Assembly: GCA_949752735.1 (NCBI GenBank)
Contig: OX457050.1
Location: 41,998,784-42,062,783, forward strand
Origin: Lumbricus terrestris
Taxonomy: Eukaryota > Annelida > Clitellata > Crassiclitellata > Lumbricidae
Direction of reading: 5' to 3'
DNA length: 64,000 bases
The notes beneath the pieces were generated by a model. That model was not told the origin of the DNA, did not search any database, and was given only the letters and a program-made list of their open reading frames with translations. Within the stretch, counting starts at the first letter, position 1, and each line of letters opens with the position of its first letter. The position numbers were made by a program, and so were the translations under genes. Shown here piece by piece: positions 4,597 through 62,761 of this stretch.

Positions 4597-5534
4597 GAGT
4601 GTAGGACATTTCCCCCCCTGGACAAAAGCCCCCGGACAAAACCCCCCGGACAATTCCCCCCCAGGGTAGGACAATTCCCCCCCTGTCGAACATATTGCGT
4701 GTAAGTGGTATTACTATAAAACGGCGGTCCTGAGTGTCCTAAGTTGGATTGATGAAAATATATCTTGCTAAATAGAAGCCGGATTGATACAAAATAATTT
4801 TTACTTAAATGGAAGCTGGATTGATGAAAATATTCATGCTTAAATTGGAGCGGGATTGATGAAAATATTCTTGCTTAAATGGAAGTTGGATTGATGAAAA
4901 TATTCATGCTTAAATGGAAGCTGGATTGATGAAAATATTCTTGCTTAAATGGAAGCTAGATTGATGAAAATATTCATGCTTAAATTTGAGCGGGATTGAT
5001 GAAAATATTCTTGCTTAAATGGAAGTTGGATTGATGAAAATATTCATGCTTAAATGGAAGCTGGATTGATGAAAATATCCATGCTTAAATGGAAGCTGGA
5101 TTGATGAAAATATTCATGCTTAAATGGAAGCTGGATTGATGAAAATATTCTTGCTTAAATGGAAGCTAGATTGATGAAAATATTCATGCTTAAATTTGAG
5201 CGGGATTGATGAAAATATTCTTGCTTAAATGGAAGTTGGATTGATGAAAATATTCATGCTTAAATGGAAGCTGGATTGATAAAAATATTCATGCTTAAAT
5301 GGAAGCTGGATTGATGAAAATATTCTTGCTTAAATTGGAGCTGGATGGATCAAAATAATTGTTATTTAAATAGAAGTTGGATTAAACGCATTTTTGCCTA
5401 AATGGAAGCAAAGGGGGGGAATTGTCCGGGGGGGGTTAATGTCCTAGGCTAAATCAGGGGGGGAATTGTCCGGGGGGTTTGTCCGGGGGGGTTTGTCCGG
5501 GGGGGTTTGTCCAGGGGGGAAATGTCCGCGCCCC
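4597..5534. mobile_element. A-type composite transposon, copy 1
   Basis: Flanked by the 9-bp direct repeat GTCCAATTC (4588-4596 and 5535-5543). The diverged homologous locus near 41430-41460 has no insertion. The left end is GAGTGTAGGACATTTCC; the right end, inverted, is GGGGCGCGGACATTTCC. Both ends are short tandem arrays of C-rich (left) or G-rich (right) units of the type GGACAAACCCCC. The interior is a 35-bp minisatellite. A non-repeat segment near 4690-4730 contains AACATATTGCGTGTAAGTGG and recurs in other A copies. No protein is encoded. The target duplication size would fit a Mutator-like origin, but this is inferred. Confidence 0.75.
4740..5400. repeat. 35-bp minisatellite array
   Basis: About 18 tandem copies of a 35-bp unit with the core AAATGGAAGCTGGATTGATG followed by AAAATATTC(A/T)TGCTT. 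Variant units with GAGCGGGATTG recur at about 4851, 4991 and 5201, spaced 140 and 210 bp. This indicates higher-order repeats of four and six units. There are no unique spacers, so it is not CRISPR-like. Confidence 0.85.
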
Positions 5535-5902
5535 GTCCAATTCTATGAAAGTTTAGAGGCTTGTAAGCCTTATATATTTGATCACAAATGACAATTGTTT
5601 TTTTACGAAAAAAAAGTCTGGATGAATTACCATTGACCCACGAACGATATCAAAAGTTTGACTTCCATTGATCAACGAAAGAGGAAATTTTCTACACATG
5701 CGTAATGATTTGCTTTCAAGCGGAAACCACCCGTGCCGAAGAAAAGCCTTAAATCTTCTTATATTCAAATTATGCGAAGAATCAATCAGTTTGTGTGATA
5801 TACAAAAGATCAGAAAGAACCAATTGTGGTGAAATAACCATTCATTTTGTAGGAAATTATACGACCAAGGTGAAATTCCAGCAACTAAACATGCTACAGT
5901 GT

Positions 5903-6009
5903 AACCATGCGAGTGTCAGCTGTATAGGAAATCATTTACTGAAATACTTTAGTTGACAGTGCATAATTTTTGGAAAATAATACTGGAGAACAACATGTAA
6001 AAGCTAGCA
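5903..6009 (+). pseudogene. decayed C2H2 finger upstream of the 6010 gene
   Basis: Read across frameshifts, 5903-5945 resembles a finger start (P-C-E-C-Q-L-Y-R-K-S-F-T) and 5978-5995 resembles a linker (N-T-G-E). A similar fragment occurs at 41823-41960. Either the annotated gene once had extra N-terminal fingers, or these belong to a separate broken copy. Confidence 0.5.
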
Positions 6010-7710: not shown

Positions 7711-8089
7711 TATAATAATTTGTTTTCTGCCGTTTAGAATTCTAAATTAGGCCTACTCTGTTCTGGTGGATGGGCCATGTGCTGCATGACTTCCCACCTT
7801 TGTAGGCTTCCTTCTACCACCTGCACCCTCGTGCCCATAATCGCACAAGCCCTTCGTCAGATGGTATTATGAGAAAAACTCATCAATAGGATTATATATT
7901 CGATTTTAGCATGATGTGGGTTTTTCATAAGTTGTATGAATTGTATAATTTATGTTTACTACTATGTCTGTACGCCAACACCAAAATACGTGTAGCTATT
8001 GGCTAAATAAAGAATAATCTTATAATTTTAACTTTTACTCGCCATTGCATGAATTTTAGTGTTGGTGGCATTCAAGTTGGATACGACAA

Positions 8090-8350
8090 GAATTCTCACT
8101 AAATAGAAGTCGGATTGATGAAAATAATTTTAAATTAAATATGAGTGAGGTCAATTAAATAATTCTTGTCTAAATTGAAACTGGATTGATAAAAAATAAT
8201 TGTTTAAATAGAATTTAGATTGATAAAAATAATTTGCCCAGATAGAATCTGGATTGGTTAAATGATTTCGTGCCTGCATAAAAACTGGATTGATGACAGG
8301 ATTCATGAGAAAATATAAGAAAATATAAGTCGGATTTATGAAACATACAT
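8090..8350. repeat. degenerate 35-bp minisatellite units inside pogo-PHD 1
   Basis: Roughly seven degenerate units with cores such as AAATAGAAGTCGGATTGATG and AAACTGGATTGATAAAAAAT lie between the left end and the transposase gene. They are the same family as the A to E composite filling. No flanking TIR was identified. Confidence 0.6.
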
Positions 8351-8701
8351 GTAAAAGTCTACATTGGACAAATAATTTAGAACTTTGTAACGATGGATTA
8401 CTTAATTAATTTTTGCTGTGACTAGGCGTTATTACATTAAAATGTGTTGTGTCGAAAACTGTTAATTCTAGGACGTAGGCCTAAGCCCATATGGATAGAC
8501 TTACAATAGGCCTAAGCAAGCTAATACCTTCTGAGAAGGTTTCTTGAATGGACACTTAAAATCTTGAAATGGTTGAATGAATGAAAAGACGTGATTTTAA
8601 AACGTTCTCTAATCGGGTTCTTTCCTTGAATAAACGATGTAATATTTAATTGTTTAAAAAATACTTTTTATGTTATCTCTTCAGGTCACAAAAGTTACAC
8701 A

Positions 8702-11554
8702 ATGGTCAGAAATTACAAAAGAAAAACCAACCATGGGCAGGACAGAAATTGGTCATCGACTGCATTAATTGCAGCCATTAATGAAGTTCAAGAGGGCAGC
8801 AAGCGTGCAAGTGAGGCTTGTCAGGCCTATGACATTCCTGAGGCTACTCTACGTCGCTATCTGAAAAAACAACCAGATCACTATCCTGTTCATGGTGGGA
8901 GATTTCGCCAGGTCTTCCCAAATACACTCGAAGAAGAGCTTTGTAATTATTCAATAGAAATGAGTGCCAGGGGATTTGGTATGACCCGTCAACAACTTTG
9001 CACTTTTGCGTTTGAATTGGCCGAGAAGAACCAGATCCAGCATAATTTTGACCAGCGTCAGAAAAAGGCTGGTGTTGACTGGTTGGCTGCATTTCTCCGG
9101 CGTCATCCAAATTTAAGTGTCCGTTCACCACAAGCGACAAGTCTCGGGAGAATGATGGGATTCAACAGACCCCAGGTGAATCGGTTCTTTGATGTCTTGT
9201 TCGAAGTCATGCAGAAGTACAAGTTCTCGCCTAGCCGAATATACAACTGTGATGAGTCTGGCTTGCCAACCGTTCCAACTAAACTACCAAAGGTGGTTGC
9301 AGGTAGAGGCGCTAAAAGGGTGCCAAAAGTCACAAGTGCTGAGCGAGGAAAAAATATAACTCTCGTCTGCTCCATGAGTGCATCTGGATCATACATTCCT
9401 CCTGCTTTCATTTACCCAAGGAAGAGAATGAGAGAGGAGTTACTGATCGGGGCACCAACAGAAGCTATTGGGATCGCACATGAGAGTGGGTGGATGACCG
9501 CAGAGGTATTTGTAAAGTATCTGCAACATGTGGTCAAACACTCACGGCCGAGTAAAGATGATCCAATTCTTCTGATCGTTGACAATCATGCTTCCCACGT
9601 GAGTCTGTCTGCCATCGATTTCTGCAGAGACTCTGGCATTGTCATGGTTAGTCTGCCTCCACACTCCACTCACAGGATGCAGCCGCTGGATGTGAGCTTC
9701 TTTGGGCCGCTGAAAACATATTACAGTAGGGCCTGTGATGCGTGGATGACTAGCCATCCAGGAATGGCCATTACTGAATTCTATGTGGCCAGCATAGTGA
9801 GTGAGCCATACCAGAAGGCGGCGACTGTTGCGGCAGCAGTCAATGGCTTTCGTTCTTCTGGTATATATCCACTGAACAGAGATGTGTTCACAGATGCAGA
9901 TTTCTGCGCTGCAATAACAACAGAGCGTGCAGAAAATCACACAATGTGTCTGACTGTTCCGAGTGTCAAAACAGAGTCCGTGGTTTCAGTTGTGAGTGAC
10001 GCCTCCTCAGTTTATGCTTCAATTGTTGACGATGTGATCCTGGCGCGATCTGCGGAAGGTAGTTCATCAATTCTACCCAATATTCCAATTGACAAAACAG
10101 AGTCCGTGGTTTCAGTTGTGAGTGACGCCTCCTCAGTTTATGCTTCGATTGTTGACGATGTGATCCTGGCGCGATCTGCGGAAGGTAGTTCCTCAATTCT
10201 ACCCAATATTCCAATTGACAAAACAGAGTCTGTGGTTTCAGTTGTGAGTGACGCCTCCTCAGTTTATGCTTCGATTGTTGACGATGTGATCCTGGCACGA
10301 TCTGCGGTTCTCCAAGGTAGTTCCTCAATTCTACCCAATATTCCAATTGTCAAAACAGAGTCCGTGGTTTCAGTTGTGAGTGACGCCTCCTCAGTTTATG
10401 CTTCGATTGTTGACGATGTGATCCTGGCACGATCTGCGGTTCTCCAAGGTAGTTCCTCAATTCTACCCAATATTCCAATTGTCAAAACAGAGTCCGTGGT
10501 TTCAGTTGTGAGTGACGCCTCCTCAGTTTATGCTTCGATTGTTGACGATGTGATCCTGGTGCGATCTGCGGTTCTTCAAGGTAGTTCCTCAATTCTACCC
10601 AATATTCCAATTGACAAAACAGAGTCCGTGGTTTCAGTTGTGAGTGACGCCTCCTCAGTTTATGCTTCGATTGTTGACGATGTGATCCTGGCGCGATCTG
10701 CGGTTCTCCAAGGTAGTTCCTCAATTCTACCCAATATCCCAAGTGTTGAATCAGCCTTGGTGGTTCCAGTCGTTGGAGGTAGGCCTTCTTCAGTTCCACA
10801 TGCTGATGGCACTTCCTCAGTCTCATGTTTTGATGATGGTTTTTCAGTCATTGGTTCTACACCGGTTCCGTCAACGTCTGGACCCATCGATGCACAATCA
10901 TTGAGCAGAACTGTGCAAGTGTTGAGTGGAACCATTGAAGTACCACCAGCAAGCAGAAATGAGGAAGCAACACCTTCAAAGGAAACTGACAATAGACCAA
11001 AGAAAGATGGAACCAATGAACCATTGTCACTAGTCGGTACTCCTTCAAGTGCTAGTCATCGTACATATGTTTCACCTCAACTTATTCGACCATACCCAAC
11101 TGCCGCAAGATCAGCAACTTCTCGGAAAAGAACAGCTGTCCGGGCACAAATCATTACGGCATCGCCGTACAAGAATGAGCTCGTTGCAAAAAAAATGGCC
11201 AAGGATTCAATCCAAGAGAAAAAGGATGCACGAAAGAAACTGAAACTAACTGTCCAGGAGAAGAGGCCTATGGAAAAGGTGAAAATATCTGCTGTAGAAA
11301 AGTCAAAGCAGAAAAATAAACAAGTGCGAGGTGATAAGCCAACAAACAGAAAGCAACCTTTAAAGATGAAACCGAAGAAGATCACAAATCCCCAAAAATC
11401 AAAAATCAGCGATGCCGCTAACGAAACATGTCCAGCTTGCGGCGAAGTGGGTGGGGCCGAAGAGTGGGTGAGATGTGGCCAGTGCCAAACCTGGTGGCAT
11501 GAAGCATGTTCGGCCTATGAAGGACGTGGGGGCTTTGTTTGTGACTTTTGTTGA
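8702..11554 (+). CDS. pogo/jerky-type DDE transposase with C-terminal PHD finger
   Basis: 950 residues. An N-terminal psq-type helix-turn-helix (about 17-55) and a CENP-B-type DNA-binding region (about 75-150) precede a DDE_1 domain (about 165-400). The acidic triad is visible as D184 (NCDESG), D294 (IVDNHASH) and D330 (MQPLDVSFFG). Residues about 423-680 are six near-identical repeats of 42-44 residues rich in Ser and Val. A basic Lys-rich segment follows, and the protein ends with a PHD-type C4HC3 zinc finger (CPAC...C-x2-C...H-x-x-x-C...C-x2-C at the final residue). It should excise and integrate the surrounding element in the nucleus. PHD fingers commonly read histone H3 tails, so chromatin targeting is possible but inferred. 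The ATG follows a possible splice acceptor (TTATCTCTTCAG, about 8673-8684), so an upstream exon cannot be excluded. Confidence 0.88.
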   Translation: MVRNYKRKTNHGQDRNWSSTALIAAINEVQEGSKRASEACQAYDIPEATLRRYLKKQPDHYPVHGGRFRQVFPNTLEEELCNYSIEMSARGFGMTRQQLCTFAFELAEKNQIQHNFDQRQKKAGVDWLAAFLRRHPNLSVRSPQATSLGRMMGFNRPQVNRFFDVLFEVMQKYKFSPSRIYNCDESGLPTVPTKLPKVVAGRGAKRVPKVTSAERGKNITLVCSMSASGSYIPPAFIYPRKRMREELLIGAPTEAIGIAHESGWMTAEVFVKYLQHVVKHSRPSKDDPILLIVDNHASHVSLSAIDFCRDSGIVMVSLPPHSTHRMQPLDVSFFGPLKTYYSRACDAWMTSHPGMAITEFYVASIVSEPYQKAATVAAAVNGFRSSGIYPLNRDVFTDADFCAAITTERAENHTMCLTVPSVKTESVVSVVSDASSVYASIVDDVILARSAEGSSSILPNIPIDKTESVVSVVSDASSVYASIVDDVILARSAEGSSSILPNIPIDKTESVVSVVSDASSVYASIVDDVILARSAVLQGSSSILPNIPIVKTESVVSVVSDASSVYASIVDDVILARSAVLQGSSSILPNIPIVKTESVVSVVSDASSVYASIVDDVILVRSAVLQGSSSILPNIPIDKTESVVSVVSDASSVYASIVDDVILARSAVLQGSSSILPNIPSVESALVVPVVGGRPSSVPHADGTSSVSCFDDGFSVIGSTPVPSTSGPIDAQSLSRTVQVLSGTIEVPPASRNEEATPSKETDNRPKKDGTNEPLSLVGTPSSASHRTYVSPQLIRPYPTAARSATSRKRTAVRAQIITASPYKNELVAKKMAKDSIQEKKDARKKLKLTVQEKRPMEKVKISAVEKSKQKNKQVRGDKPTNRKQPLKMKPKKITNPQKSKISDAANETCPACGEVGGAEEWVRCGQCQTWWHEACSAYEGRGGFVCDFC
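9967..10740 (+). repeat. in-frame tandem repeat in transposase gene
   Basis: Six head-to-tail copies of a 126-bp or 132-bp unit (core peptide TESVVSVVSDASSVYASIVD). The first two copies are 42 residues and the last four 44, differing by a Glu versus Val-Leu-Gln change after ARSA. Copies are nearly identical, indicating recent expansion or homogenisation. Confidence 0.9.
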
Positions 11555-12194: not shown

Positions 12195-13645
12195 CACTGT
12201 GCCACTTTGTTCAGGATAGGTCGACAAAACTCGACATCAGGCATTCTCATGCAGAGAAGTCAGAAGTGCTTCCTTTTAGTCAACTAATTTTGTGTTCATT
12301 CACTTACATTATTGTTAAACTAACATTTCTGAAGATTATCAGAATGAAGTTTTTATTCTACAGTTATTCAAGACAGTAGTCATTTGTTCCGGATTTCGAC
12401 TATCTGACAAATTTTGTGTTAAATATTATATATAGCTCTTTCAAATATACTTGATAAGTGATAAATTACAGTAGGCCCTATATCATTGTCTTAGCCTATT
12501 TCTGTATGTATATATATATATATATGAGCATTTGTTAGGACCCATTCTAAGATGCTACTCAGAGGCGCTCCCGGCTACTTTGCAGAGACTGAATCAAAGT
12601 TCATGCTTGAGCGCATGAGCAATTGTGAGTGAAGGATTCTAATCTGCAACCTTCCGGCTGCAAGGTACCAAACATAACCCTACACCACAGCATCCCGCAT
12701 ATTATTTATTGATACTTAGTATAATTATTACCGTTATTGTCAGTAAATATTGTGTAATCTTTTTCTACTTGGGGCGACTTTGTTTTTTTTTCATTTCTGT
12801 AATTCATTTCAGCAATGATTGTGTAATCATGATTGCTATGCTTCCTGAAAAATGTGGAATTTTGTTGTGTTGTTGATTATTTATGACGCACTTCATTCTC
12901 TTCTTCTCTAACCTCTAATTAGATGAGATGCATAACTTACTCATGCTTGTATTTCTTTTAATGGAATTTATTTGCATATTGGTGTTGCATAAATGATGCA
13001 TTACACAAATGAATAGAATTCATTATCTTAGTCTACATAGTTTCAGTATTGTGCTTTCTGTTGGGCCATTGTGAAAGATGCATCCTAAATATATTTTGTG
13101 TTTTGTTGACTTCGTAATTTGTATGACACACTTCATTTTGTTGGTATAGCTTCTAAATGAAAAAGCTGCAGTCACATAATTATCGTGCTTATGTTTCTAC
13201 TGATGCGATACATCTTATGCAGTTGTTGTCAGTAGTTATGCGACCAAGAGTTCTGGTGCAGATAGACTGGTTCCCTGCTCTACATAGATCGTTCACTGGT
13301 TACCAGGACCCTTGAAGTGAGTGGTCTCCGGACCGCCGGAAGTATTTAATAACATGTAGGCTGGGTCCCTTGCCCACGAGAAGACACCTATGCCGGTTCC
13401 ATGCACATAATTATACTGAGTCTGACTCTCTATATAGGCGCTGGCTCCCCGGTCAGACGGAAGTATGTCAACCGTACCTTACTTAGCATCTGGAGACCTA
13501 ATCTGTAGGCCGGGTCAACCCTACATCTGTACTTTGGCTCCCTAGATATTGAAGCGGAGTAACTGCATTGCACAGGCTTCATAATTTCCTTAGGGATTGT
13601 GCTCTATTTCCTTAATGGGTAGATTGGAAGTATATCATTGTAGGT
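12195..13645. other. intergenic, mostly AT-rich, no gene recognised
   Basis: A short TA dinucleotide run lies near 12508-12524. 12535-12680 (CTACTCAGAGGCGCTCCC...) resembles a repeat at about 59740-59840 (CTACTCAGAAGCGCTCCC...) and may be SINE-like. 13230-13560 is GC-richer with repeated CGGAAGTAT words, unassigned. Confidence 0.4.
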
Positions 13646-13900
13646 TCCACGACAATTGGTCTACAGACAACTCGTCCAACGACAGTTGGTCTACAGATGA
13701 TTTTCTAGCTTAAATGGAAGCTGGATTGATGATTTTCGTTAATGTATTTCAATATGCATCCAGCTTCTACTTCAGATCTAAAATACCTTCTATTTCTTGT
13801 TCCTTATTTTCGTCAATTCAGCTTCTATTTCAGATATAAAATACCATCATCCAGCTTCCATTACTTAAGTGATTTTTCAGCAATTCATCATAAAAAATTA
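13646..13900. mobile_element. B-type composite element, one-ended fragment
   Basis: The left end GGTTCCACGACAATTGGTCT is followed by two more loose units (ACAACTCGTCC, ACGACAGTTGGTCT), then 35-bp minisatellite units (GCTTAAATGGAAGCTGGATT). The matching right end is absent, so the copy is truncated. Confidence 0.6.
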
Positions 13901-13961: not shown

Positions 13962-14478
13962 GGTTCTAGGACATAATGGTACGGACAAAACGGTACGTTT
14001 AAATGGAAGCTGGATGAGGACATTTTATTGCTGAAATATAGGGTGGATGGCTTTTTGTGGCTGAAGTAGAGCTCTAGTGAAGAAAAAGTTAGAGAAAAGG
14101 AGACTGGATTGACGAAAGAAAAGCTTGAGAAATGGAAGCTGAATTGATGTCTTTCATTCATGTGTGTCATGATGTATCCAGCTTCTATTTCAGCCATAAA
14201 ATTCCTTAAATCAACCTCCATTTGTAATGCATCTTTCATTAATCCAGCTTCTATTTCAGCTATGAAAATACCCTGATACAGCTTCTATATCTAAAGCCTT
14301 AATTTCATCAATCCAGCTTCCATTTCATATAAAAAATATCCATGCATAGGCTTCATCCAGCTTCCATTTCACATGCGTCTTTTCATAAATCCAGCTTCCA
14401 TTTCATACATAGAAATTCAGTAATCCAGCTTTAATTTCATCCATACCAATTTTGTCCATACCATTTTGTCCGGTCACC
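13962..14478. mobile_element. C-type composite transposon, copy 1
   Basis: Flanked by the 9-bp direct repeat GTAGTTATG (13953-13961 and 14479-14487). The left end is GGTTCTAGGACATAATGG; the right end, inverted, is GGTGACCGGACAAAATGG. Both continue as tandem GTACGGACAAAA(C/T)G units. The interior is the 35-bp minisatellite in both orientations, mostly the CATCCAGCTTC(T/C)ATTTC subtype. No protein is encoded. Confidence 0.8.
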
Positions 14479-14526
14479 GTAGTTATGCTATGTTGCACTC
14501 ACTTTAAATTGAACAGTAAGGCAACT

Positions 14527-16153
14527 ATCCAATGGCAGTCAACAGCAGATGGAAGGAATATTGCGAAAAATTATACGACGGAGAGGAAGAAGAAGTAGAG
14601 ATTTCCTATCAAGAAAGAGAACCACCACCATTGATTGAAGAGATCAGAAGAGCAATAACGAGAACAGCGTCACGAAAGGCCCCAGGTCCGGACGATATAG
14701 CAGTTGAATTATTAAAGTTTGGAGGAGAAATGACAATAAGCAAGTTGCACGAGATATGCGTAGAGATCTGGAATACAGGAATATGGCCAGAGGAATGGAC
14801 ACAATCAACGTTCATACCGCTTCCAAAGAAAGGAGACCCGCTTCAATGCGGAAATTATAGAACAATCGCATTAGTCTCTCACGCAAGCAAGATCTTGTTG
14901 CGTGTAATACTGGAGAGAATGCAAAACAGACTAGCGGAAGAAATCGCTCCAGAACAGGCAGGATTTAGACCAAAACGAGGCACAAGAGATCAAATAGTGA
15001 ACATAAGGATCATCTTGGAGAAGGCAAGAGAGAGGAAACAACCGTTGTACCTGTGCTTCATAGACTTCTCCAAGGCTTTCGACACGGTTAGGCACGACCA
15101 GCTGTGGCTGGCCATGCTTGACACGGGATTCCCACCGCAGCTGGTAGAACTAATCAGAAATTTATATAGACAACAACACGCTAACGTGAGAACGAACGAC
15201 CTCACATCAGCATGGTTCAGGGTAAAGGGAGGGGTCAGACAAGGGTGCAACCTCTCACCATGCTTATTTAATATTCTATCGGAGCAGGTGATGCGAATAG
15301 CATTGGAAGGCTTTGGAGGAGGCCTTAGAATCGGAGGGAGGATTATAAACAACCTCAGATATGCTGACGATATTGTTCTGATTGCTACATCTCCGGAAGA
15401 ACTTCAAGAAATAGTGAACCGAGTAGAGAAGGCAGCAGAACAGTTCAACCTGAAGATAAACGTAGGGAAGACGAAGGTCATGACAACCACTGATGAAATT
15501 TTGACAACAGAAGTGAACGCAGGACAGCTGGATCAAGTGGATTCATTTGTTTATTTGGGATGCCGGGTTACAAAGGATGCAAATTGCACGGGAGAAGTAA
15601 AAGCAAGACTTGCGATGGGAATGACGAGTCTGGTAAATATGACGAAGATTTGGAAAAATAAAGCTGTCAGCAACAGAACAAAGATGAGACTACTGAAAGC
15701 ATTGGTGTTTCCAGTGGCGACATACGGGTGTGAGGCATGGACTTTAAAGAAAGAGGAGGAAAGACGCATACAAGCATTCGAGAACAAATGTCTTAGAAAA
15801 ACATTAAGAGTCCCATGGACAAAAAAACTGACCAACGAACAGGTGTACTTCATAGCAGGAACAAAGCAAGAACTGTTGACCCACGTAAAAACAAGAAAGT
15901 TACGATACTTCGGACACGTGATGAGACAGCAAAAGGAAAGCATAGAAAACAACCTGATGACGGGACTGATGGAAGGAGAAAGGGGAAGACGAAGACCAAG
16001 AATGGCATGGATAGACAACATCTTGAAATGGACTGGACTTTCGGGGAGGAGGTTAATGAACATGGCAGGAGATAGACAACTGTGGAAAATGCTCATCCAT
16101 TCGTGCAGCCAACCGTCGCAGAGCGACGATGGCGGAATGACATGACATGACAT
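14527..16153 (+). mobile_element. 5'-truncated RTE-type non-LTR retrotransposon
   Basis: Flanked by the 11-bp target duplication GTAAGGCAACT (14516-14526 and 16154-16164). The 3' end is a short tandem ATGAC run just after the stop codon, as is usual for RTE elements. The copy lacks the endonuclease domain and the N-terminus but keeps an open RT frame, so it is probably young and dead on arrival. Confidence 0.88.
14532..16145 (+). CDS. RTE-type reverse transcriptase, C-terminal part of ORF2
   Basis: 537 open residues. RT motifs in order: APGPDDIAVELLKFGG, FIPLPKKGDPLQCGNYRTIA, EQAGFRPKRGTRDQI, FIDFSKAFDTVRH, VRQGCNLSPCLFN and the catalytic LRYADDIVL (about residues 276-284). The C-terminal part has GCEAWTLKKEEERRIQAFE, RKLRYFGHVMR and RRRPRMAWIDNI, typical of RTE/BovB-like proteins. 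The endonuclease is missing because the copy is 5'-truncated; the first Met is internal, not a true start. The role would be target-primed reverse transcription of its own RNA; this copy alone could not nick DNA. Confidence 0.9.
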   Translation: MAVNSRWKEYCEKLYDGEEEEVEISYQEREPPPLIEEIRRAITRTASRKAPGPDDIAVELLKFGGEMTISKLHEICVEIWNTGIWPEEWTQSTFIPLPKKGDPLQCGNYRTIALVSHASKILLRVILERMQNRLAEEIAPEQAGFRPKRGTRDQIVNIRIILEKARERKQPLYLCFIDFSKAFDTVRHDQLWLAMLDTGFPPQLVELIRNLYRQQHANVRTNDLTSAWFRVKGGVRQGCNLSPCLFNILSEQVMRIALEGFGGGLRIGGRIINNLRYADDIVLIATSPEELQEIVNRVEKAAEQFNLKINVGKTKVMTTTDEILTTEVNAGQLDQVDSFVYLGCRVTKDANCTGEVKARLAMGMTSLVNMTKIWKNKAVSNRTKMRLLKALVFPVATYGCEAWTLKKEEERRIQAFENKCLRKTLRVPWTKKLTNEQVYFIAGTKQELLTHVKTRKLRYFGHVMRQQKESIENNLMTGLMEGERGRRRPRMAWIDNILKWTGLSGRRLMNMAGDRQLWKMLIHSCSQPSQSDDGGMT

Positions 16154-16714: not shown

Positions 16715-16911
16715 TGAAAATGGTACGGACAAAACGGTACGGACAAAATGGTATGGCTTAAATGAAAGCAGGATTAGTGAATTTTTATATATGAAATAGA
16801 AGCTGGATTAATGAAAAGACGCATGTGAAATGGAAGCTAGATGAAGGCTCTGCATGGATATTTTTATATATGAAATGGAAGCTGGATTGATAAAAATAAC
16901 GCTTTAGATAT

Positions 16912-35037: not shown

Positions 35038-35047
35038 AACTTATGTG

Positions 35048-46995: not shown

Positions 46996-47003
46996 TTCTA
47001 CTC

Positions 47004-47713: not shown

Positions 47714-47715
47714 TA

Positions 47716-52269: not shown

Positions 52270-52632
52270 CCCCACTTGGGCACTTCAGTCACACGGTGTT
52301 CGGAGCGCAATTTGGACGTTACGTTTAAGCCAAATCTATCATTCAACACATTAACCTTCTGTCCTGATCTTCAAACTACCATAGCCTTGATTTTCTAAGA
52401 ATTAGAAATCGCGCTTCGTTTTTATCCTGATTTGTTTTGCCATTTTCAAGATGTTTGTAATATTTTAGAGCAATGTTTCCAGTGGGAACTTTATTTTTCA
52501 AAACAAGAAGTAGATGCTGAACATTTTGTTTGCTATTGTCAGTTTCTGACATAACCTCAAAACTTCATACACTTTATTGAAGTAAGATAGCCTTAAATTT
52601 AATACCCCATCAAAATAGCAGAACAAGAAACG

Positions 52633-54546
52633 ATGCAAACTTCCCAGCTGCGTCGCAAATCGTTTATGCTATGTGGTCAAACAGCAGAAAATAAGAAAAG
52701 TCGCTTCAAGGAAAAGACATACAAATGCGATTTATGTGATAAAGGGTTTAATTCCGCCAGTAATTTAAGGAATCACAGGATGGTCCACACTGGAGAGACA
52801 CCATTTAAATGTCAGGTGTGTCAAAAGAAGTTTTCTTTGTCATCCAATCTTCGGGTTCACGGTAGAATCCATACGGGAGAGAAACCATTTCATTGTCTGA
52901 TATGTAAACAAAGTTACACTAAAATTTCCGGTCTGAGTGTTCATGCAAGAACCCATACTGGAGAAAAACCATATCAATGCCAATTTTGTCAAAAGACATT
53001 TGCACAGTATGCTAATCTGCAAGTTCACATGAGAATCCATACTGGAGAGAAACCATATCAGTGTGAGGTGTGTAAGAAGCTATTATCTCGTTCTTCATAT
53101 CTACGAGCTCATATTAGAATCCATTCTGGAGATAAACCATTTCTATGTCAGGTTTGTCATAAAAGGTATTTTAGCTCTTCTACTCTACGAAAGCATGCTA
53201 TGATCCATACTGGAGAAAAACCTTACCAATGCCATATATGCAAGAAATCATTCACACAACATTATTCTCTTCGAATTCACTGCAGAACTCATACAGAGGA
53301 GAAACAATTTCTATGCCATATATGTCAAAAACTCTTGTGTAGCGCGCACAGTCTACAGAATCATATTAGAACTCATGCTGAAAAGAAATCCTGTCTGTGC
53401 CAGTTTTGTCAGATTTCTTTTTCACAGTCTACATATCAGAATATGCTTCGTACCGGACATGCCGGGGAGAAACCATACATATGCCAACACTGCCCGAAAG
53501 CGTTTGCATGTCATTATCAATTTATTACTCATATGAAAGCTCATACCAAAGAGAAACCATACCTATGCCAAGTATGTCAAAGACGTTTCTCAGGATCTTG
53601 CCGTCTAAGCATTCAGGTTAGAATCCACAGTGGATATAAGCCGTATAAATGCCAGCTTTGTCCGAAAGCATTTGCCTACTCTTATTCTTTAGCAATTCAC
53701 ACGAGAACCCACACTGGAGAGAGGCCTTACCAATGTCAGATATGTGAAAAACGCTTTTCCACATCTTGCAGTTTAAGATGTCATGAGAGAATTCATCCTG
53801 GAGAAAAGCCATACAAATGCCAGGTCTGTGAGTTGAAATGTTACACTTATGCAAATAATCTTAAGGATCACATGAAAACACATTTAGGAGAGAAACCACA
53901 CTTGTGTGTTGTATGTCAGAAAACATTCTCAAGCACTTCAGATCTGCGAATTCATGAAACATCTCACTTCGAAGAGAAACAATATATCTGTCAGGAATGT
54001 AAAAAGACATTTTGCAGATCTACGCATCTGCAAAGTCATATTAGAATACATACTGGGGAAAAACCATTTCAGTGTCATTTATGCCAGAAATCATTCACAC
54101 AAAATTCAAATCTGCAGGTTCATGAAAGAACTCATTCCGGAGAGAAACCATACAAATGTCAGATATGTAAACAAGGATATGCCCAATCATCTTCTTTGCA
54201 AGTACATTTTAGAAGCCATACTGGAGAAAAATACCAGTGCAAGGATTGCTCGAAAGCATTCAGCAGTCGATCGGGTCTCATGTCTCACGTGATAATCCAT
54301 ACTGGAGAGAAACCATATGAATGCCAGCTATGTTCGAGAGTGTTTAAATTCCGAGGTGGATTAAAGGATCACATGAGAACACATACTGGAGAGAGACCTT
54401 TCCATTGTGATACGTGTAAAAAGAGTTTTTCACAGCTTTCCAGTTTAACCTATCATGTCAGAGTTCACACAGGAGAGAAGGCTTACTTATGTCAAGTATG
54501 CAAAAAGAGTTTCACCCGATCTTCCACTTTAAGAGGTCATTCATGA
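52633..54546 (+). CDS. C2H2 zinc-finger protein, 22 fingers (right palindrome copy)
   Basis: 637 residues, identical to the product of 42815-44728, with the same degenerate fingers 9 and 11. The stop at 54546 follows a TCAT tandem duplication (54537-54544) that shifts the frame. Downstream of it finger coding continues to about 54991 in another frame. Here the downstream fingers are complete, whereas the left copy ends at 42560. Together the two copies could produce twice the dose of one protein if expressed. The leader from 52270 to 52632 is shared by both arms. Confidence 0.85.
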   Translation: MQTSQLRRKSFMLCGQTAENKKSRFKEKTYKCDLCDKGFNSASNLRNHRMVHTGETPFKCQVCQKKFSLSSNLRVHGRIHTGEKPFHCLICKQSYTKISGLSVHARTHTGEKPYQCQFCQKTFAQYANLQVHMRIHTGEKPYQCEVCKKLLSRSSYLRAHIRIHSGDKPFLCQVCHKRYFSSSTLRKHAMIHTGEKPYQCHICKKSFTQHYSLRIHCRTHTEEKQFLCHICQKLLCSAHSLQNHIRTHAEKKSCLCQFCQISFSQSTYQNMLRTGHAGEKPYICQHCPKAFACHYQFITHMKAHTKEKPYLCQVCQRRFSGSCRLSIQVRIHSGYKPYKCQLCPKAFAYSYSLAIHTRTHTGERPYQCQICEKRFSTSCSLRCHERIHPGEKPYKCQVCELKCYTYANNLKDHMKTHLGEKPHLCVVCQKTFSSTSDLRIHETSHFEEKQYICQECKKTFCRSTHLQSHIRIHTGEKPFQCHLCQKSFTQNSNLQVHERTHSGEKPYKCQICKQGYAQSSSLQVHFRSHTGEKYQCKDCSKAFSSRSGLMSHVIIHTGEKPYECQLCSRVFKFRGGLKDHMRTHTGERPFHCDTCKKSFSQLSSLTYHVRVHTGEKAYLCQVCKKSFTRSSTLRGHS

Positions 54547-55450
54547 AAGAATTCACACTGGAGAGAAGCCGCACAAATGTCATTTATGTGAGTTCAAAAC
54601 TAATGGAAAACATAGTCTAAAGAATCACGTTAGGACACATACCGGAGAGAAACAATACATTTGCAATGTATGCCAGAAAACATTCTCGAGCAATTCAACT
54701 CTGAGAATTCATGAAAAATCCCACTCAGAGGAAAAACAATATCAGTGTCAGGATTGCAAAAAGACATTTGTCAGAGCTGCAGATCTGCAAAGACATACTA
54801 GAATCCATACTGGAGAAAAGCCATTTCAATGTCATTTATGCCAGAAATCATTCACGCTCAATTCAAATCTGAAAATTCACAAAATAACTCATACAGGAGA
54901 GAAGCCATACCAATGTCAGATATGTAATCGAAGATATACCCAATCCTCTCATCTGCGAGTACATAATATGAGAATCCACACGGGTGAGAAATAGTGCCCG
55001 AAATGCTTGAAAGCATTTGCACACTTGTCTGGTATTGTATTGTATCTGTAAATTTATATAGCACCTCTCACAGCGCAAACCAATCAGAGGCGCCCTGGTA
55101 CCAGGACTCACATAAGACCTTCCCTATATATATGAAACATGTTGACTTTATCATGCCACTCCACTGTATAGGCCTATCATGTTACAGTCCTTACCGGAGA
55201 GATTACTTATGCCAAGAATGTGAAAAGTCTCACTTGCTCTCCCAATCGAAGAGGTCATAAAGGATTTCATACCGTAGAGATGCTGCACAAATGTCAATTA
55301 CAAAATGTCATCTTGAAATAATGGAAATTCTTCTAAAGAATCGTATGTCATGTGTTAAATCTGCACAATCATGTTTGAATTATGCCGTTCAATAATAGCC
55401 TGGTGAAATTCCGTTCTGGAGAGAAGCAATATAGTATTCCAATTTGAGTT
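54547..55450 (+). pseudogene. downstream zinc-finger coding remnants of the right-arm gene
   Basis: 54550-54991 reads as about five further fingers (HERIHTGEKPHKCHLC, TGEKQYICNVCQKTFSSNST, FQCHLCQKSFTLNSNLKIH and others) ending at a TAG after HTGEK. 55026-55135 is a non-finger insertion (TATTGTATTGTATCTGTAAA...) of SINE-like look. Decayed finger words resume at 55185-55440. The intact ancestral gene was probably about 28 fingers or longer. Confidence 0.7.
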
Positions 55451-56083: not shown

Positions 56084-56959
56084 TTGCACCAGAAAAATAC
56101 CTTCCAATACGGATTTTCAGCCGGGGGGAAACTGTTTCGGGAGACTTTGTATCGGGTTAAACTTTATTTCGTGACACCGGCTATATTCCACTCTTCAAGC
56201 AAGTTAAAACAGCTGTAGCTTGTTCCATTAGGCAGTATAGGGACATCTGAACTTTCAGTGTTTCTTTATATGGCGCCAGCACAGCATGGCAACGTTCCTT
56301 CGACGTAGAAGCCTTCAACAACCTGTCATCCCAATGAACTTTATGTGGAACTTCAAAACCTAATGATGCATGGGATTTCAGCAGGATCACGCCCCATTGA
56401 TTGTCCTTTGCCTGCTATGATATTATGACGTAGGCCTATTATTTTAAGTAACTAATTTAGTCCTGTCGAATGCTGTAGTGACATAAGCATTCAAAATGAT
56501 ACCAGATCTTCTTAGCTTCTTATCCGCAGGTGCAAAAGTCAATTTAACATAACTACCTACCCACAACATTTTCTTGTATAATTTTCAAATTGACTTATTG
56601 GTTTTTAATTGAATAATAACTAAACCCAATGCACATCATGACTGATAACAAAAGACATTGAAATAAGCAGTAGAAATGAAATTGGTAGAAAGAAAATAAT
56701 ATTTGGCACATTGCCTATTCAACGCTGTCTGTAGGCCTAGCTATTGACAGATCAAGGTCGTTGGGCCACCCCTAAACGTTTTTAAATTTCCCTACCAATT
56801 TCACCAGTAGTCCTGATATTATACAGACCAATTTTGAGGGGCGAGACTTTAGAAATTCTAAAAATAATTTTTGTGTGGCTTACATTGTCACCCTATTACA
56901 TACATACATACATACATACATACAAAAACTAATGTAAACATTATGCACGTAACATCTAA
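55451..56959. other. intergenic, no gene recognised
   Basis: 55770-55880 is a repeat-like block with GGGGTCGTCCATAAAGGACG and GACGTCCGCA words. 56049-56081 is a TA dinucleotide run and 56897-56924 a CATA tetranucleotide run. Short frames are unsupported. Confidence 0.45.
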
Positions 56960-57512
56960 CAATTTCAACGTGTAGCCTGCTCTCACAATTATCTGTACAC
57001 CAGTATAATGGCCGGCCATTGAGTCGTACACAGGCAACGCCAGTATTTGATGTACTGTTTGTTTTCCGCCATAACCTGAAGTGGGGCCAGGATGGTAGTG
57101 CGGACACGTCCGTTAGGCAGAATTTCGAGACCAACATTGCTAATAATAATAAGTCCATGTGATTTTATGACCTCTATTCAGAACAATGAATCCTTTTATG
57201 TATGAAAGAGACGACTTTTGTTCATTGTACCCCGCGCCTGAACAACACTACAAAGCGCATTGTATATTTGCTCAATGCCATACAAAGACCTAACAATGAA
57301 TTACAATAAACACCTATTCACCAAATCAGGTCAGCCAAACAGACAGACAGCCACACGTACACAAAAACACAGATACAGACAGTCAGACACAAGTGCACAA
57401 AAAGGTCTGTTTGTATCTCGGCACAGTAACCAGCACATCTAATTTCTATCACAACTAAGTGTCTCAGTCTTTCCACAGTCTTCAACTTCATATATTTATT
57501 TTTAACTACAAA

Positions 57513-58691
57513 TCAGCAAAAATCAGCAAATAATTCGTCAACTGGAGAAAAGCGGTGGCTAGTGCAATGCTCCAGAAATTCCTTCTCAATTTCAAACATT
57601 TCACCGCATATACCACATCCAAACGATTTTTCCACAAACGGTTTTGCAACTTCATGTGATTCGATGTTGTCAATGAAATCACATTCTCGATGACGACTTT
57701 TTGGTAGAGCTATTGTCATTTCATTGCAGTCATGAGGCAATTTTCTTTGCATGCGTTCAAATGGTTTATCAATCGCATCAGCACTGCACCGAATGAATGG
57801 AACAGATAGATTAGCATTTGATTCCTTTTCCAATTTATCATCCTTTCGCTGTATTAACTCATGGCATTTATGCTGTTTAGTTGAAGAACTGCCATTACAA
57901 TAAAGTTTACTGCAGATGTGTTGCATCTCATCTGTGTGAGTTCTGTGTTGATTTAGATCTAAAAGTGATCTGAATCCTTTATCACCAGCTTCACAAATGT
58001 ATGGTCTTTCTCCAGTAAGGGTTTCCGTATGACGAGTTAGATCACTGTCACGATGGGTTCTCATGTGTGTTTTCAGATTACCACCTTCAGTAAATGATTT
58101 CTGACAAAACTGGCATTTGTATGGGTTTTCACCAGTATGGGATCTATTGTGTACTTTCAGAGAACTAGCCTGAGTAAACAATTTCTGACATAACTGACAT
58201 TTGTATGGTTTCTCACCAGTATGGGTCCGCATGTGTCTTTTCAGATGACCACTTCCAGTAAATGATTTCTGACACAACTGGCATTTGTATGGCTTCTCCC
58301 CAGTATGTGTTCTTGTGTGCCTTTTCAGATCACCATCTCGGATAAATGACTTCTGACATACCTGACATTTGTATGGTTTCTCCCCAGTGTGGATTTTCAT
58401 GTGCCTTTTCTGACTACCATATTCAGTAAATGACTTCTGACATAACGGACAGCTGTACGATTTCTCTCTGGTATGGGTTGTCATGTGGCTTTTCAGATGA
58501 CCACATTGAGTAAATGACTTTTGACATACCTGACATTGGAACGGTTTCTCCCCAGTGTGGGTTCTCATGTGTACTTTTAGATCACAACCTGCATGAAATG
58601 ATTTCTGACATAACTGACATTTGTATGTTTTCTCCATGGTATGGGTTGCCATATTTACATCCAACCAACGTAATTCAGAGTTGTTTTTCAC
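57513..58691 (-). CDS. C2H2 zinc-finger protein with conserved C-terminal finger
   Basis: 392 residues. Seven canonical C2H2 fingers (about residues 20-215) carry TGEKPYKCQ linkers. A half finger (DSDLTRHTETL) and a degenerate finger (YICEAGDKGFRSLLDLNQH) follow, then a spacer of about 100 residues and the C-terminal finger FGCGICGEMFEIEKEFLEHC-TSH with intact C-x2-C-x12-H-x3-H. Compared with the 29.5-kb relative it has three fewer fingers and a shorter spacer, suggesting loss or gain of whole 84-bp finger units. It is probably a nuclear DNA-binding protein. The first Met is taken as start; an upstream exon is possible. Confidence 0.85.
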   Translation of the reverse strand: MKNNSELRWLDVNMATHTMEKTYKCQLCQKSFHAGCDLKVHMRTHTGEKPFQCQVCQKSFTQCGHLKSHMTTHTREKSYSCPLCQKSFTEYGSQKRHMKIHTGEKPYKCQVCQKSFIRDGDLKRHTRTHTGEKPYKCQLCQKSFTGSGHLKRHMRTHTGEKPYKCQLCQKLFTQASSLKVHNRSHTGENPYKCQFCQKSFTEGGNLKTHMRTHRDSDLTRHTETLTGERPYICEAGDKGFRSLLDLNQHRTHTDEMQHICSKLYCNGSSSTKQHKCHELIQRKDDKLEKESNANLSVPFIRCSADAIDKPFERMQRKLPHDCNEMTIALPKSRHRECDFIDNIESHEVAKPFVEKSFGCGICGEMFEIEKEFLEHCTSHRFSPVDELFADFC

Positions 58692-61600
58692 ACATAACTG
58701 ACATTTGGAAAGGCTGCTCTCTATTAAGTTTTCTCACTGCAGGTGTCAGATTTTCACAATGAGTATATGATTTCACAAGTACTGTAACTAATGCAAATAC
58801 AGTTTTTCACGAAAATGTATTTGTATAGCTTTCAGTAAAATTACCAGAATATACAACTGGTTCATAGCACAATTTGCAGTTTTGTGGCATAAATAGAATC
58901 CATTTGAAAACAAATAATGCAAGTTGTAGATTATTTCTGGTTCGATGCATTGAAGTGCAATCTTCTTCAGGTTTCATTTCTCATTACAAGCTCTTGTGTA
59001 ACAAAGTAAACAATTGCCCTCGCAGGAAACATGAATACTCTGGGATGAAATATTGAAGTCATAAATAAATGGCTTAAAATCGGCTGTTAAATATGTCCAC
59101 TTCAACATTGTCTTTGAAGGACTTGCCCAAGATTCCAATGAGGAAGCTTGAGGTGGTAAATTCTGTTTCATTAAGGTCAAAATTTTTCAATCAATGATTG
59201 TAGGTCTACTCAAATGACGACACTGAGAAGTTCTAACATACAGCTGTTCATCTTCATGCACTTGCAAAAAGAACTTGCGGCACCTATTAAGAAGAAGAAG
59301 AACATGAATATCTTAGTAAGAAACTGTGTTTCAAGAAATAAAATACATATTTTTTATCACCGTTCAAAATGGAATGCTAAATTCTGTTTCATTAAGGTCA
59401 AAATTTTTCTGCTGGTCGATGCATCGATAGCATAAATTTGTATTTTACTTCTCGAATCATGCAGCTTACGTTGCTAAATTATCTTAATGTCTCCAATGCC
59501 ATATTTGATGTTGGTAAGTAAGCAGCTTTGGAATGTGTATGATAACCTTCATGAACCCAGATTTCACTCAAGGAATAAATGTTTTAATTAAAGCTAACTC
59601 TTCTCAACTTACGTCATAGCTAACCTGGGGTCTAGCTGTATTTTTTAAATATCTGGATATGTAAAAGCGATATCGATGATGAAAATCAATTCCACACTAT
59701 TTCAAAAGGTAAATTGTTTATGCATGTGCACTTGTAATAGCGCCCATTCAAGATCCTACTCAGAAGCGCTCCCAACACTGAATCTGAGTTTCACGCCGAA
59801 ACGTGCTGAGCAATTGAGAATGAAGGACTTGCCCAAGATTCCAATGAGGAAGCTTGAGGTGGATTTTATGCCCTACTATAATATGCAAATATCTTCAAGT
59901 AAGTAACTCAATGAGCACAGAAATTTAGTCAACTCTATAATATTATCCTCTTGTCATAGTGAACATTTAATTTCCTCTTATCTACTACTTTTGTAAATTG
60001 ACAGTTTTAATAATCTTTTAATGCAATGTTCTAGCTCTTCTTTTAGCTTCACATACAGTCTGTGCATATAACTCTCACAACACTGTGCTCACTGAACACG
60101 TTTCGGTCACACGCTGCACACACTTGCTTGACTTTTCTGTCTTTGTTTCTTGGACACGTTGGTCATAACATTGGATACAGGTACATTAGCAAAAGTGTAA
60201 GTCGAGTAGTCCTAGACTTATAGTTGCATACCATAGAATATTTAGATGAAACTAATTACCAAAGCTGACCTGCTAAAACTGAAAATGGTATGGTATTTAC
60301 ATTTTTCGCACTGAAATATGGAAAAAATCTTATGAAAATCCTATGCAATAGGAAACAATCATAAAAAATTGTGTGCACTATTTAAAAAAATTCACGAGAA
60401 GCAGCTTAACATGACACCAAATGTTAATTACATAAAAATGAAGGTTGCTGCCACTTCACAAATCTGAAAAAAATCAGGATTAACATGCCCGCATGGACCC
60501 AAGGTTAGCTGTTGATGGTTAAACAAGAAATATTGCATCAATCCAACTTTATTTAACCAGGAATTTCTCATCAATCCAACTTCTATCGATACAGGAATCT
60601 TTCCATCAAGTCAACGTCTATTTAGGCAAAACACTTGATTGGTTCAGCTCCATTGAGAAAAACTTGTAATTCATTTGTGGATGCTTTGGTGGAAAATGTT
60701 GGACTTAAATGGAAGTTGGATTGATGAAAAAAAAATTTCTAAATTCTAGTTGGATTGATGGTAATGTTTCTTAAACAGAATATCAATTGATAAAATGTTT
60801 CTTTCAGGCTCTTGAAGGCGGCCATCTTGAACTTAAATCTTGTACTCCGGTGCCTGTTCCACATATCGTTTGAAGGCTGTGTGCTCTATGCTCCAGATCG
60901 CATGACCTAGAACTTCTCCTTACTTACCAACATCATATACTTCATTGGAGACATTGAAATCATTCAGTAGCCCAACTGGCAACCTATCGTTTAAACGGAA
61001 TAAAAAAATTAAAAATTTGACTGGTGCAGGATAATTATTTTTCAACAATCCGCAACTTTGGCACGAATTATTCGGTAAATGTGTAGTTTAGCGTCGCAAA
61101 TTATTTGCTCATTGCAGCATTGTTATTTTTAATCAATCCAACTTATAGTTTGTTTAGAATCCTTTTCATTGATCCAGCTTCTGTTAGGCCAGAATCTGTT
61201 TGATCAATCTCGCTTCTATTTCGTCAGCAAATATTTTTGGTCAGTATGACTTCTATTTAATTGAAAATTATTGTTCATCAATCCAGCTTCATTTTCGGCA
61301 AGATATGTTTTCATTAATTCCTCTTCTATCACAATATAAATTACTTTCATCAATCCGCCTTCCGATGGTCTATTTGGAAAGAATTATTTTCGCCAATCCG
61401 ACTTGCACTCCACTAATGCTGAAACCCATGCAATGGCGAATAATTTAAGACCCTAGAATGCATGCTTACCAATTATAATTATCAACCAGGCTTCCATTTA
61501 AACAAGGGTAAACGTGTATTTTAGCGTATTTTATTATTTCGAAATCGATATCGTGCATTTTAGCGTAGTTATTTATTTAGCATGCGTATTTTCGTCTTTC

Positions 61601-62219
61601 GTTGATGAAATCGTTATAACGGTTCATGTTTCTATTGAAAAGTTAAAAAACAACTTTGAAGCGGATACTGGGGGTTGGATTGATGATAAACGTCTTGGTG
61701 AAATGAAAGCTGGATTGATGAAAAAACGCTTGAGAAATGGAAGCAACATTAAGGTATCTTATGACTGAAATAGAAGCTAGATTGATTAAATGATCACTTG
61801 AGAAATGGAAGCTTAATTGATTAAAAGAATGCTTTAGAAATAGAGGTTGGATTGATGAAAATAAGTTCCCTTATATAGAAGCAGGTTGCTGAAAAGATAA
61901 TTAATTAAATGAGAGCTGGGTCGTTGGCAAATAATTGTTATTTAAACAGAATTTGGTTGATGAAAAATAATTGTTGCTCCAATAGAAGCTGGATTAACGA
62001 AAATGATACCATACATGCCAATGTAGAAGTCGGATTGACGAAAATACCTGCGTGAGTTCGAAAATCGCATCCAAACAATAAAATAAGCTATTTATTTTTA
62101 GCTAAGATGTTTGGAATAAAATACGCTAAAATACGCTTTTACCTAAACAAGAATTCAACTAATTAATCCAGGACTTTTTTTCGTTAATCCAACTTGTTAG
62201 CCATCAACACTGAATCCCT
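58692..62219. other. 5' flank of the 57.5-kb gene, no other gene recognised
   Basis: Shares blocks with 30986-32760. 59735-59860 resembles the SINE-like piece at 12535. Degenerate 35-bp units occur at 60530-60800, 61140-61400 and 61675-62050. 61970-62150 is related to the inner part of the palindrome arms (47170-47340). Confidence 0.5.
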
Positions 62220-62761
62220 GGGGCACGGACATTTCCCCTCCTGGACAAACCCCCGGACAAAACCCCCCCGGACAATTCCCCCTGATTTAGCCTAAGACAT
62301 TAACCCCTCCCCGGACAATTCCCCCTTTGCTTCCATTTAGGCAAAAACGCGTTTCATCCAAGTTCTATTTAAATGACAATTATTTTCATCAATCCCGCTT
62401 CCATTTAAGCAGGAATATTTTCATCAATCCAGCTTCCATTTAAGCAAGAATATTTTCATCAATCCCGCTTCCATTTAAGCAGGAATATTTTCATCAATCC
62501 AGCTTCCATTAAGCAAGAATATTTTCATTAATCCAGCTTCCATTTAAGTAAAAATTAGTTTGCATCAATCCGGCTTCTATTTAGCAAGAAATCTTTTCAT
62601 CCATCCAACTTGTGTACTTCGGACCGCCGTTTTGTAGTAATACCACCTACACGCAATATGTTCGACAAGGGGGAATTGTCCTACCCTGGGGGGATGTTGT
62701 CCGGAGGTTTTGTCCAGGGGTTTTGTCCGGGGTTTTGTCCAGGGGGAAATGTCCTACACTC
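62220..62761. mobile_element. A-type composite transposon, copy 5
   Basis: Flanked by the 8-bp duplication GAATCCCT (62212-62219 and 62762-62769). The homologous site in copy A near 32738-32752 (ACTGAATCCCATGCAAT) is empty. The left end is GGGGCACGGACATTTCC; the right end, inverted, is GAGTGTAGGACATTTCC. About six 35-bp units and the A-specific segment (inverse orientation, near 62625-62670) fill it. Confidence 0.88.

Follow-up and report, generated by a model that had tools for sequence, protein, structure and literature searches.

One satellite repeat within six kinds of transposon ends in the earthworm Lumbricus terrestris, probably derived from the arms of a Phantom-type MULE

Introduction

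How does a single tandem repeat come to fill transposable elements whose ends differ? The question is raised by a stretch of 64,000 nucleotides of the Lumbricus terrestris genome (hereafter the window; C16:41998784-42062783 of a 1.056-Gb assembly of 331 contigs), in which short elements with different terminal inverted repeats (TIRs) enclose arrays of the same 34/35-bp satellite. We find this satellite as the cargo of six end types, here called A to F, and as the building material of the long inverted arms of a B-ended, transposase-bearing element of the Mutator (MULE) kind. We consider it probable that the satellite comes from the arms of such a Phantom-type MULE and was captured by other MULE-like families. 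The presence of one repeat in at least six end types of one genome shows the spread of a satellite by several mobile elements, and two kinds of tandem repeat can be separated within one element, the outer being family-specific and the inner shared. Below, C1, C8 and C16 are contig labels, L001-L108 are labels of the genome loci examined, and genome-wide counts refer to the whole assembly.

Results

Searching the genome with the MULE domain (PF10551) gave 143 matches, and we examined 42 of these loci, mostly with about 1.5 kb on each side, a span that would miss distant satellite arms. At C8:45154775-45166634 lies a B-ended element of 11,860 bp with a perfect target site duplication (TSD; ATCGCTCAC, 9/9) and with tips GGTTCCA and GGTGTCA followed by CGACAACT, the same as in the B elements of the window. 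Its inverted arms, 3.4 and 4.4 kb long, hold 100 and 131 satellite units, and its 510-aa frame (L042:3410-4939) contains the MULE domain (1e-15) and an N-terminal FLYWCH finger (PF04500, 1.4e-6, residues 21-80). The predicted protein has 44 relatives, many with both FLYWCH and MULE domains, the closest at 74% and the closest named one, from Arctopsyche grandis, at 57%. Judged by its ends and its coding capacity, the element is apparently autonomous, and the B family is, as far as these features can define it, a Phantom-type MULE. Two further copies of the transposase were found, in L015 and L029. In L015, an 11-unit satellite run lies upstream of the gene, at the position of an arm in the C8 element, and a short B element with a 9-bp TSD (AATTTTAGG) lies behind the gene; the empty site of this short element is found in L016.

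The ends of A, B and C are built to a common plan, with a 7-nt tip, the motif (G/C)GACA and tandem repeats of 14-16 bp. The tips are asymmetric, one kind at each end: GRGTGTM versus a GGGG- or GGAG-type tip in A, GGTGTCA versus GGTTCYA in B, and GGTGACC versus GGTTCTA in C. One tip of each kind was present in 20 of 21 sampled A rows (in the remaining row, L054, one end was misplaced by our script) and in three of four sampled C pairs, the fourth giving no clear reading. The orientation of the array relative to the A tips was constant in 19 of 20 sampled elements, with L060 as the exception. The motif after the tip is GGACA in A and C and, by a one-base departure, CGACA in B. Since the same plan is found in Tm1 of nematodes (see Discussion), we assign B to the Phantom-type MULEs and treat A and C as built on the plan that B follows. 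The other three types, D, E and F, make up a second group, marked by 8-bp target duplications and by simple inverted repeats that start with GGTTATT, GGTAATC and GGTAAA, respectively. Their TSDs (those of D and E counted below, that of F seen in the window) fall within the 8-11 bp typical of the MULE superfamily, to which the three types may belong; Merlin and other superfamilies likewise make TSDs of 8-9 bp. Helitrons have neither TSDs nor TIRs, and a Helitron identity was rejected for the satellite carriers, which have both. We also rejected the P superfamily (Galileo), which is recognized by a 7-bp TSD and a THAP transposase, as the TSDs here are 8-9 bp and the B protein is of the FLYWCH and MULE kind.

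These ends and duplications recur genome-wide. The A sample consisted of 24 array loci with exact matches to the A-type unit, taken from the head of the list of 29-mer matches and all on contig C1 (the neighboring array C1:9434155 was left out, and L053 and L054 are near-duplicates); chosen in this way, it is uninformative on the division of all arrays among end types. Inverted A ends stood on both sides of 22 of the 24 arrays (on one side in L047, on neither in L063), and plain satellite blocks without ends are thereby rejected for the A-type unit. After two of 23 rows with unresolvable ends (L048, L055b) had been dropped beforehand, TSDs were perfect in 15 of 21, ten of them of 9 bp and five of 8 bp; two more had one mismatch in nine, one was of 7 bp and three were absent (L002, L055 and L054, the last with its misplaced end). 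As a control, left flanks were combined with right flanks from other A elements; this gave one perfect match in 1260 trials, and the same control for six D and 13 E loci gave none in 186, so chance target duplications are rejected as well.

The D ends had 651 genome matches (control, 2), and the satellite was present inside all 14 D loci examined, which amount to 12 independent ones (L088/L089 and L081/L082 are each the same locus; L094/L095 are near-duplicates). A perfect 8-bp TSD flanked 10 of the 11 D copies with both ends, the window copy included. With copies 97.4-100% alike and a mean identity of 98.4%, D is a young, homogeneous carrier family. Five D copies (L079, L080, L087, L085, L086) have a common target, ACCATATTGT, in either orientation, which suggests that a single repeated sequence served as the target or that the loci were duplicated. 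For E, with 353 genome matches (control, 2), all 13 pairs of exact ends among the matches listed enclosed the satellite, and 10 of them had a perfect 8-bp TSD. The C ends had 2822 matches (control, 2); from the many listed pairs we took four short ones, all with the satellite, and in addition L108, chosen for its long arms. L108 is C-ended and has a perfect 9-bp TSD and no satellite, and none of its frames matched the B transposase.

The satellite itself is abundant. In the window, its 20-mer core has 102 matches at up to three mismatches, versus 0.03 expected from shuffles; genome-wide, a 29-mer of the A-type unit has 11,944 matches (up to two mismatches; control, 0) and the dimer-type half-unit 28,611 (up to three; control, 0). 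The period of 35 bp given by the sequence-only reading of the window holds for A, whereas B, C and E have dimers of about 68 bp, made of two half-units with unlike linkers. By their linkers the units fall into classes. Two of these make up the A arrays, another two mostly alternate in B, C, E and the B-MULE arms, and both kinds are present in the D and F arrays. A 16-bp core, GAAATRGAAGCTGGAT, is common to the arrays of all element types, while the linkers vary between types. In each of the five unit sets the core carries 1.4-1.6 bits of information on average; the linkers carry 0.4-0.6 bits in the B-MULE, B/C/E and D/F sets, values that are partly an effect of pooling two alternating linkers, and 1.2-1.4 bits in both A sets, so that within A the linkers are conserved as well. 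This comparison, for which the units were gathered with a seed that sits inside the core, demonstrates a common core and no function. With a loose 15-mer, 43 of 188 core matches in the window fall outside the delimited elements, some of them surely by chance. Diverged satellite runs outside recognized ends lie at 8060-8300, 31960-32610, 39000-39140, 61100-61440 and 63160-63380 and are perhaps decayed elements. A viral_contigs match (L001) looks like chance similarity in coding DNA, and a genome_contigs search gave no result.

When whole arrays were compared, the C, E, B and A queries each matched their own type best, which does not support routine end-swapping; it seems that every end type gained its array at an early point and amplified it afterwards. 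The D array is a chimera. Its first 160 bp are nearest to B (score 104; A, 56) and the rest is nearest to A (107; B, 65), so these arrays have recombined. A short E-like element in L041, situated about 1 kb beyond a MULE frame and outside that MULE element, has an array 86.5% identical to the B-MULE arms versus 78.6% to other E arrays. By these array affinities, the D chimera and the L041 array show two apparent cases of transfer between end types. We also observed nested insertions, one of an A element within a B end (L053; TSD TACGGCAAC) and one of a D element within an F array (L088), and these are the raw material for such transfer.

Other MULE elements mostly show no satellite. One that has none is the MULE element in L041 (2369-5820). 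Its ends are A-like, the tips GAGTCTA and GGGAGCA being followed by GGACAATACCCC-type repeats, its TSD is perfect (9/9, GTCTTCTAC), and its MULE domain lies in a frame of 260 aa. Its relative in L010 (91.5% over 1.9 kb) has a 281-aa MULE frame, ends that are likewise A-like and not identical to A, and a TSD of 6/8. The same kind of end with other tandem repeats was seen in MULE elements at L033 (9-bp TSD), L071 and L076 (8-bp TSDs) and L075, and, less completely viewed, at L028, L017 and L065. No satellite was present in the stretch viewed in L010, L033, L071, L075 and L076. The satellite was found in three of the 42 MULE loci (L015, L016 and L026, with 18, 11 and 4 matches), that of L026 lying in a separate E-like element; allowing one extra mismatch adds three matches at the edge of L067. 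The outer repeats are therefore family-specific, and a MULE can do without the satellite. A D-like end beside the MULE frame of L040 was rejected as a chance match. A further MULE family, with 475-aa frames (L017, L020-L022, L024, L036) and copies about 99% identical, looks recently active; in the single end viewed it has 14-bp CGTCAAAACAGCCC-type repeats.

In the window, the nine elements listed by the sequence-only reading are real and lie within 1 bp of the coordinates given there. Its count of at least five TIR types around one satellite filling was borne out, and we add a sixth, F, as well as a second C copy and part of a B element. The window elements and two empty sites are as follows.

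4597-5534, + strand: A-type, non-autonomous; array 4741-5383; ends GAGTGTA and GGGGCGC with GGACATTTCCCC tandem; TSD GTCCAATTC (9 bp)
35047-35917, + strand: A-type; array 35274-35771; ends GGGTGTC and GGGGAAC; TSD AACTTATGT (9 bp)
38173-38836, - strand: A-type; array 38301-38552; ends GGGGAAC and GAGTGTA; no TSD
62220-62761, - strand: A-type; array 62381-62611; ends GGGGCAC and GAGTGTA; TSD GAATCCCT (8 bp)
25640-26570, unstranded: B-type composite; ends GGTTCTA and GGTGTCA with CGACAACT tandem; no TSD; a left-truncated A element is nested in it at about 26145-26499
40304-40927, unstranded: B-type; inverted satellite parts; ends GGTTCCA and GGTGTCA; imperfect TSD (7/9)
13643-13880, + strand: B-type, left part, absent from the earlier list; start GGTTCCA with CGACAATT; right side cut off, border approximate
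13962-14478, unstranded: C-type; inverted satellite parts; ends GGTTCTA and GGTGACC with GGACAAAATGG; TSD GTAGTTATG (9 bp)
16706-24658, unstranded: C-type, second copy, newly added; split by a gypsy-type retrotransposon at 16907-24329; no recognizable TSD
33034-33729, + strand: D-type; simple TIRs of 109 bp (98%); chimeric array; TSD CAAAACTG (8 bp)
45092-45759, - strand: E-type; ends GGCAATC and GGTAATC with CTGCAGTTTAGG; 6-bp flank match only (E elsewhere has 8-bp TSDs)
51602-52269, + strand: E-type, duplicate of the element at 45092-45759, in the opposite arm of a 5.2-kb inverted duplication
61507-62143, + strand: F-type, newly added; ends GGTAAAC and GGTAAAA with GTATTTTAGCGTATTTT; mixed array; TSD TAAACAAG (8 bp)
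63632-64000, unstranded: E-type start running past the window edge; another E-type end at 63499
41420-41520, + strand: empty site for the A insertion at 4597, a paralogue in the window
63021-63130, + strand: empty site for the D insertion at 33034, a paralogue in the window

Two descriptive claims about the nine held in part. Most were said to have target duplications; these are perfect, at 8-9 bp, in five of the nine, with the partial matches listed at 40304 and 45092 and none at 38173 and 25640. GGT or GGGG termini do occur; what had been missed is GAGTGTA, which in A stands at the end opposite GGGG. The three copies without a TSD (38173, 25640, 16706) could be products of recombination between copies, an origin that has been suggested in Tm1 and Galileo.

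Several neighboring features were recorded. The inverted duplication (42560-47739 and 49623-54801), whose arms of about 5.2 kb are 99.96% identical and lie 1.9 kb apart, carries a C2H2 zinc-finger frame besides the E element and is either a recent palindrome or an assembly product. The gypsy-type retrotransposon within the second C copy has long terminal repeats 98% alike. Its first frame matches a SCAN domain and also reverse transcriptase for a second time, which suggests that a piece of a long interspersed nuclear element (LINE) lies inside. A reverse-transcriptase frame of 541 aa (14520-16145) adjoins the first C element, with the cut-off B element at 13643 close by. The open frame at 8630-11554 (974 aa) combines Psq, Tc5-type and DDE_1 domains, and a repeat of 132 bp, present in about six copies (9967-10742), keeps its reading frame. 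Paralogous zinc-finger blocks at 28930-32496 and 56953-61072, roughly 76-82% alike in pieces, are useful as references for empty sites. Taken as a whole, the window contains frames of zinc-finger, LINE and gypsy type as well as one for a DDE-type transposase.

Discussion

Our findings suggest a history in which the satellite changed vehicles. The carriers would be non-autonomous DNA transposons of the Mutator kind, and their outer (G/C)GACA repeats of 14-16 bp probably serve as transposase-binding sites. The 34/35-bp satellite is a second, inner repeat that builds the arms of the B-ended Phantom-type MULE, where it would also have begun, and the short B elements would have kept the B ends together with a remnant of those arms. 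A, C, D, E and F probably gained the satellite when elements became nested in one another and their arrays then recombined or served as templates for each other in template-switching repair. Each end type could then have been amplified by a transposase recognizing its ends, with its own version of the array becoming homogenized and dispersed. Two transposase-bearing elements with 9-bp TSDs, one B-ended with FLYWCH and MULE domains and one A-like with a MULE frame, indicate that at least B, and probably A, rides on Phantom/Mutator-type machinery, and the FLYWCH and MULE or MULE proteins would be the ones that move these elements. The sequence-only reading had invoked an unknown transposase family, and this proposal is not supported, given the two elements; the search that it called for, for an autonomous transposase, gave an apparently autonomous element for B and MULE frames for A-like ends, and yielded none for C (in L108) or, at the 42 MULE loci viewed, for D, E and F. 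The satellite-free elements, namely the A-like MULE of L041, the C-ended L108 and the other MULEs, give the satellite the status of a passenger. With a satellite-armed element that bears a transposase, a young D family, empty sites and a chimeric array at hand, the change of vehicle becomes directly testable.

Several observations weigh against this account. Complete satellite arms were observed in the C8 element only, and the third copy of the B family, L029, has no satellite in the 3.3 kb viewed. The TSDs of the short C elements are weak, one of four being perfect (9 bp), one being of 7 bp as read by eye, and two elements having none. No transposase partner with the same ends was found for D, E and F at the 42 MULE loci viewed out of 143 matches, and their simple TIRs and 8-bp TSDs may leave their superfamily assignment loose. 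The first half of the F array is about as near to the B-MULE arms (78) as to A (75). In-register similarity is modest, the value for D being reached by none and that for F by seven of 200 shuffles. Finally, we infer, rather than observe, the direction in which the satellite passed between families.

The shared plan of asymmetric 7-nt tips and (G/C)GACA tandem repeats in A, B and C could instead be inherited from an ancestral foldback MULE with satellite arms, whose ends diverged into A to F while the inner satellite was kept, so that no transfer is needed. The grouping of most arrays by end type is in keeping with such common descent, and the mixed D and F arrays could go back to an ancestral array in which both kinds of linker were present. 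However, the A-like MULEs of L010 and L041 and the MULEs with other tandem ends show no satellite, a satellite-free C element exists, the two parts of the D array are each much nearer to a different family, and the D copies are young; we therefore regard this explanation as unlikely. It appears less likely again that the satellite pre-existed as genomic blocks and was picked up separately by several families, the B-MULE arms being one such capture. The core matches outside elements (43 of 188), which include old diverged runs (8060-8300, 61100-61440), would agree with it, and capture of a pre-existing tandem repeat by a miniature inverted-repeat transposable element (MITE) has been proposed for miDNA4 of Xenopus (PMC12628747). 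Against this stand the A ends on both sides of nearly all sampled A-type arrays, and we encountered no long free block, though no systematic search for one was made.

The sequence-only reading had itself offered end-swapping by recombination within the arrays. Taken as a routine process, in which crossing-over keeps exchanging ends between families, this is the least probable of the explanations that we considered. Elements with correct ends and no TSD (38173-38836, 25640-26570, 16706-24658, L002, L055, L092) do look recombinant, copies of this kind have been described as possible crossover products in the Tm1 and Galileo papers (PMC3169594; PMC3573991), and the D chimera and the E-like array of L041 point the same way. 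Yet 20 of 21 sampled A rows and three of four sampled C pairs have one tip of each kind, the arrays group by end type, and no element with mixed ends was met among loci picked by A, D or E patterns, which did not target mixed ends. Exchange in the arrays thus survives from the earlier proposal as an occasional event, and its premise of many unrelated ends gives way to two groups, A, B and C with one architecture and D, E and F with 8-bp duplications. Its suggestion that the elements could seed satellite DNA proved sound, since real transposons with different ends do spread the satellite, and the flank check that it proposed came out in its favor in the genome samples, in the bounded A-type arrays as in the TSDs of A, D and E and their controls. 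A more speculative and rather doubtful extension would see the satellite as a second-order parasite, repeatedly acquired and spread by diverse transposon families because its core would have a function of its own, be it for a transposase, for a host factor or in the amplification of arrays, and would thereby give arrays a value to their carriers.

MITEs bearing tandem repeats have reportedly been found in a clam, to go by the title of a paper. In the portions of the literature available to us, satellites in single transposon families are known, and we found no report of one satellite common to MULE families with different ends, nor a description of its sharing across several end families together with a satellite-armed transposase element. 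The comparisons that follow rest on the same portions. MITEs and Helitrons carry and disperse satellite repeats, in molluscs among others (PMC12628747; PMC5139131); the mollusc carriers are Helitrons, unlike the cut-and-paste elements with TSDs and a MULE-type gene described here. Tetris of Drosophila virilis is a foldback element with 8-10 bp TSDs, and tandem repeats inside its TIRs gave rise to satellite arrays (PMC4079207). Its TIR-220 repeats belong to one family, in contrast to a 34/35-bp repeat with six end types and a transposase-bearing element. Galileo resembles our elements in the exchange of TIRs and inner regions between subfamilies, in chimeras without TSDs and in the proposed origin of one subfamily through the exchange of an inner part (PMC3573991); it differs in belonging to the P-element superfamily, with 7-bp TSDs, and in that its exchanges concern subfamilies of one element rather than elements with different tandem ends.

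The nearest relatives are found among the MULEs. Phantom MULEs and Rehavkus share with our elements the MULE domain, in some cases the FLYWCH finger, and TSDs of 8-10 bp, and a minisatellite precedes the 3' TIR in Rehavkus and follows the transposase open reading frame in an aphid Phantom (PMC6446971). Those minisatellites are confined to single groups, whereas the unit studied here crosses families with different ends. Tm1, a Mutator/Foldback element of root-knot nematodes, has TSDs mostly of 9 bp (8-10), asymmetric 7-bp tips (A1 and A2) outside the inverted repeat, then GGA and tandem repeats of 13-15 bp, with MITE-like members, a FLYWCH and MULE (Phantom) protein and some copies without TSDs (PMC3169594). 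The A, B and C ends repeat this plan, and the B protein is likewise of Phantom type; what sets the earthworm elements apart from Tm1 is CGA instead of GGA in B, the inner 34/35-bp satellite, the multi-kilobase arms that it forms in one element, and its presence within six end types.

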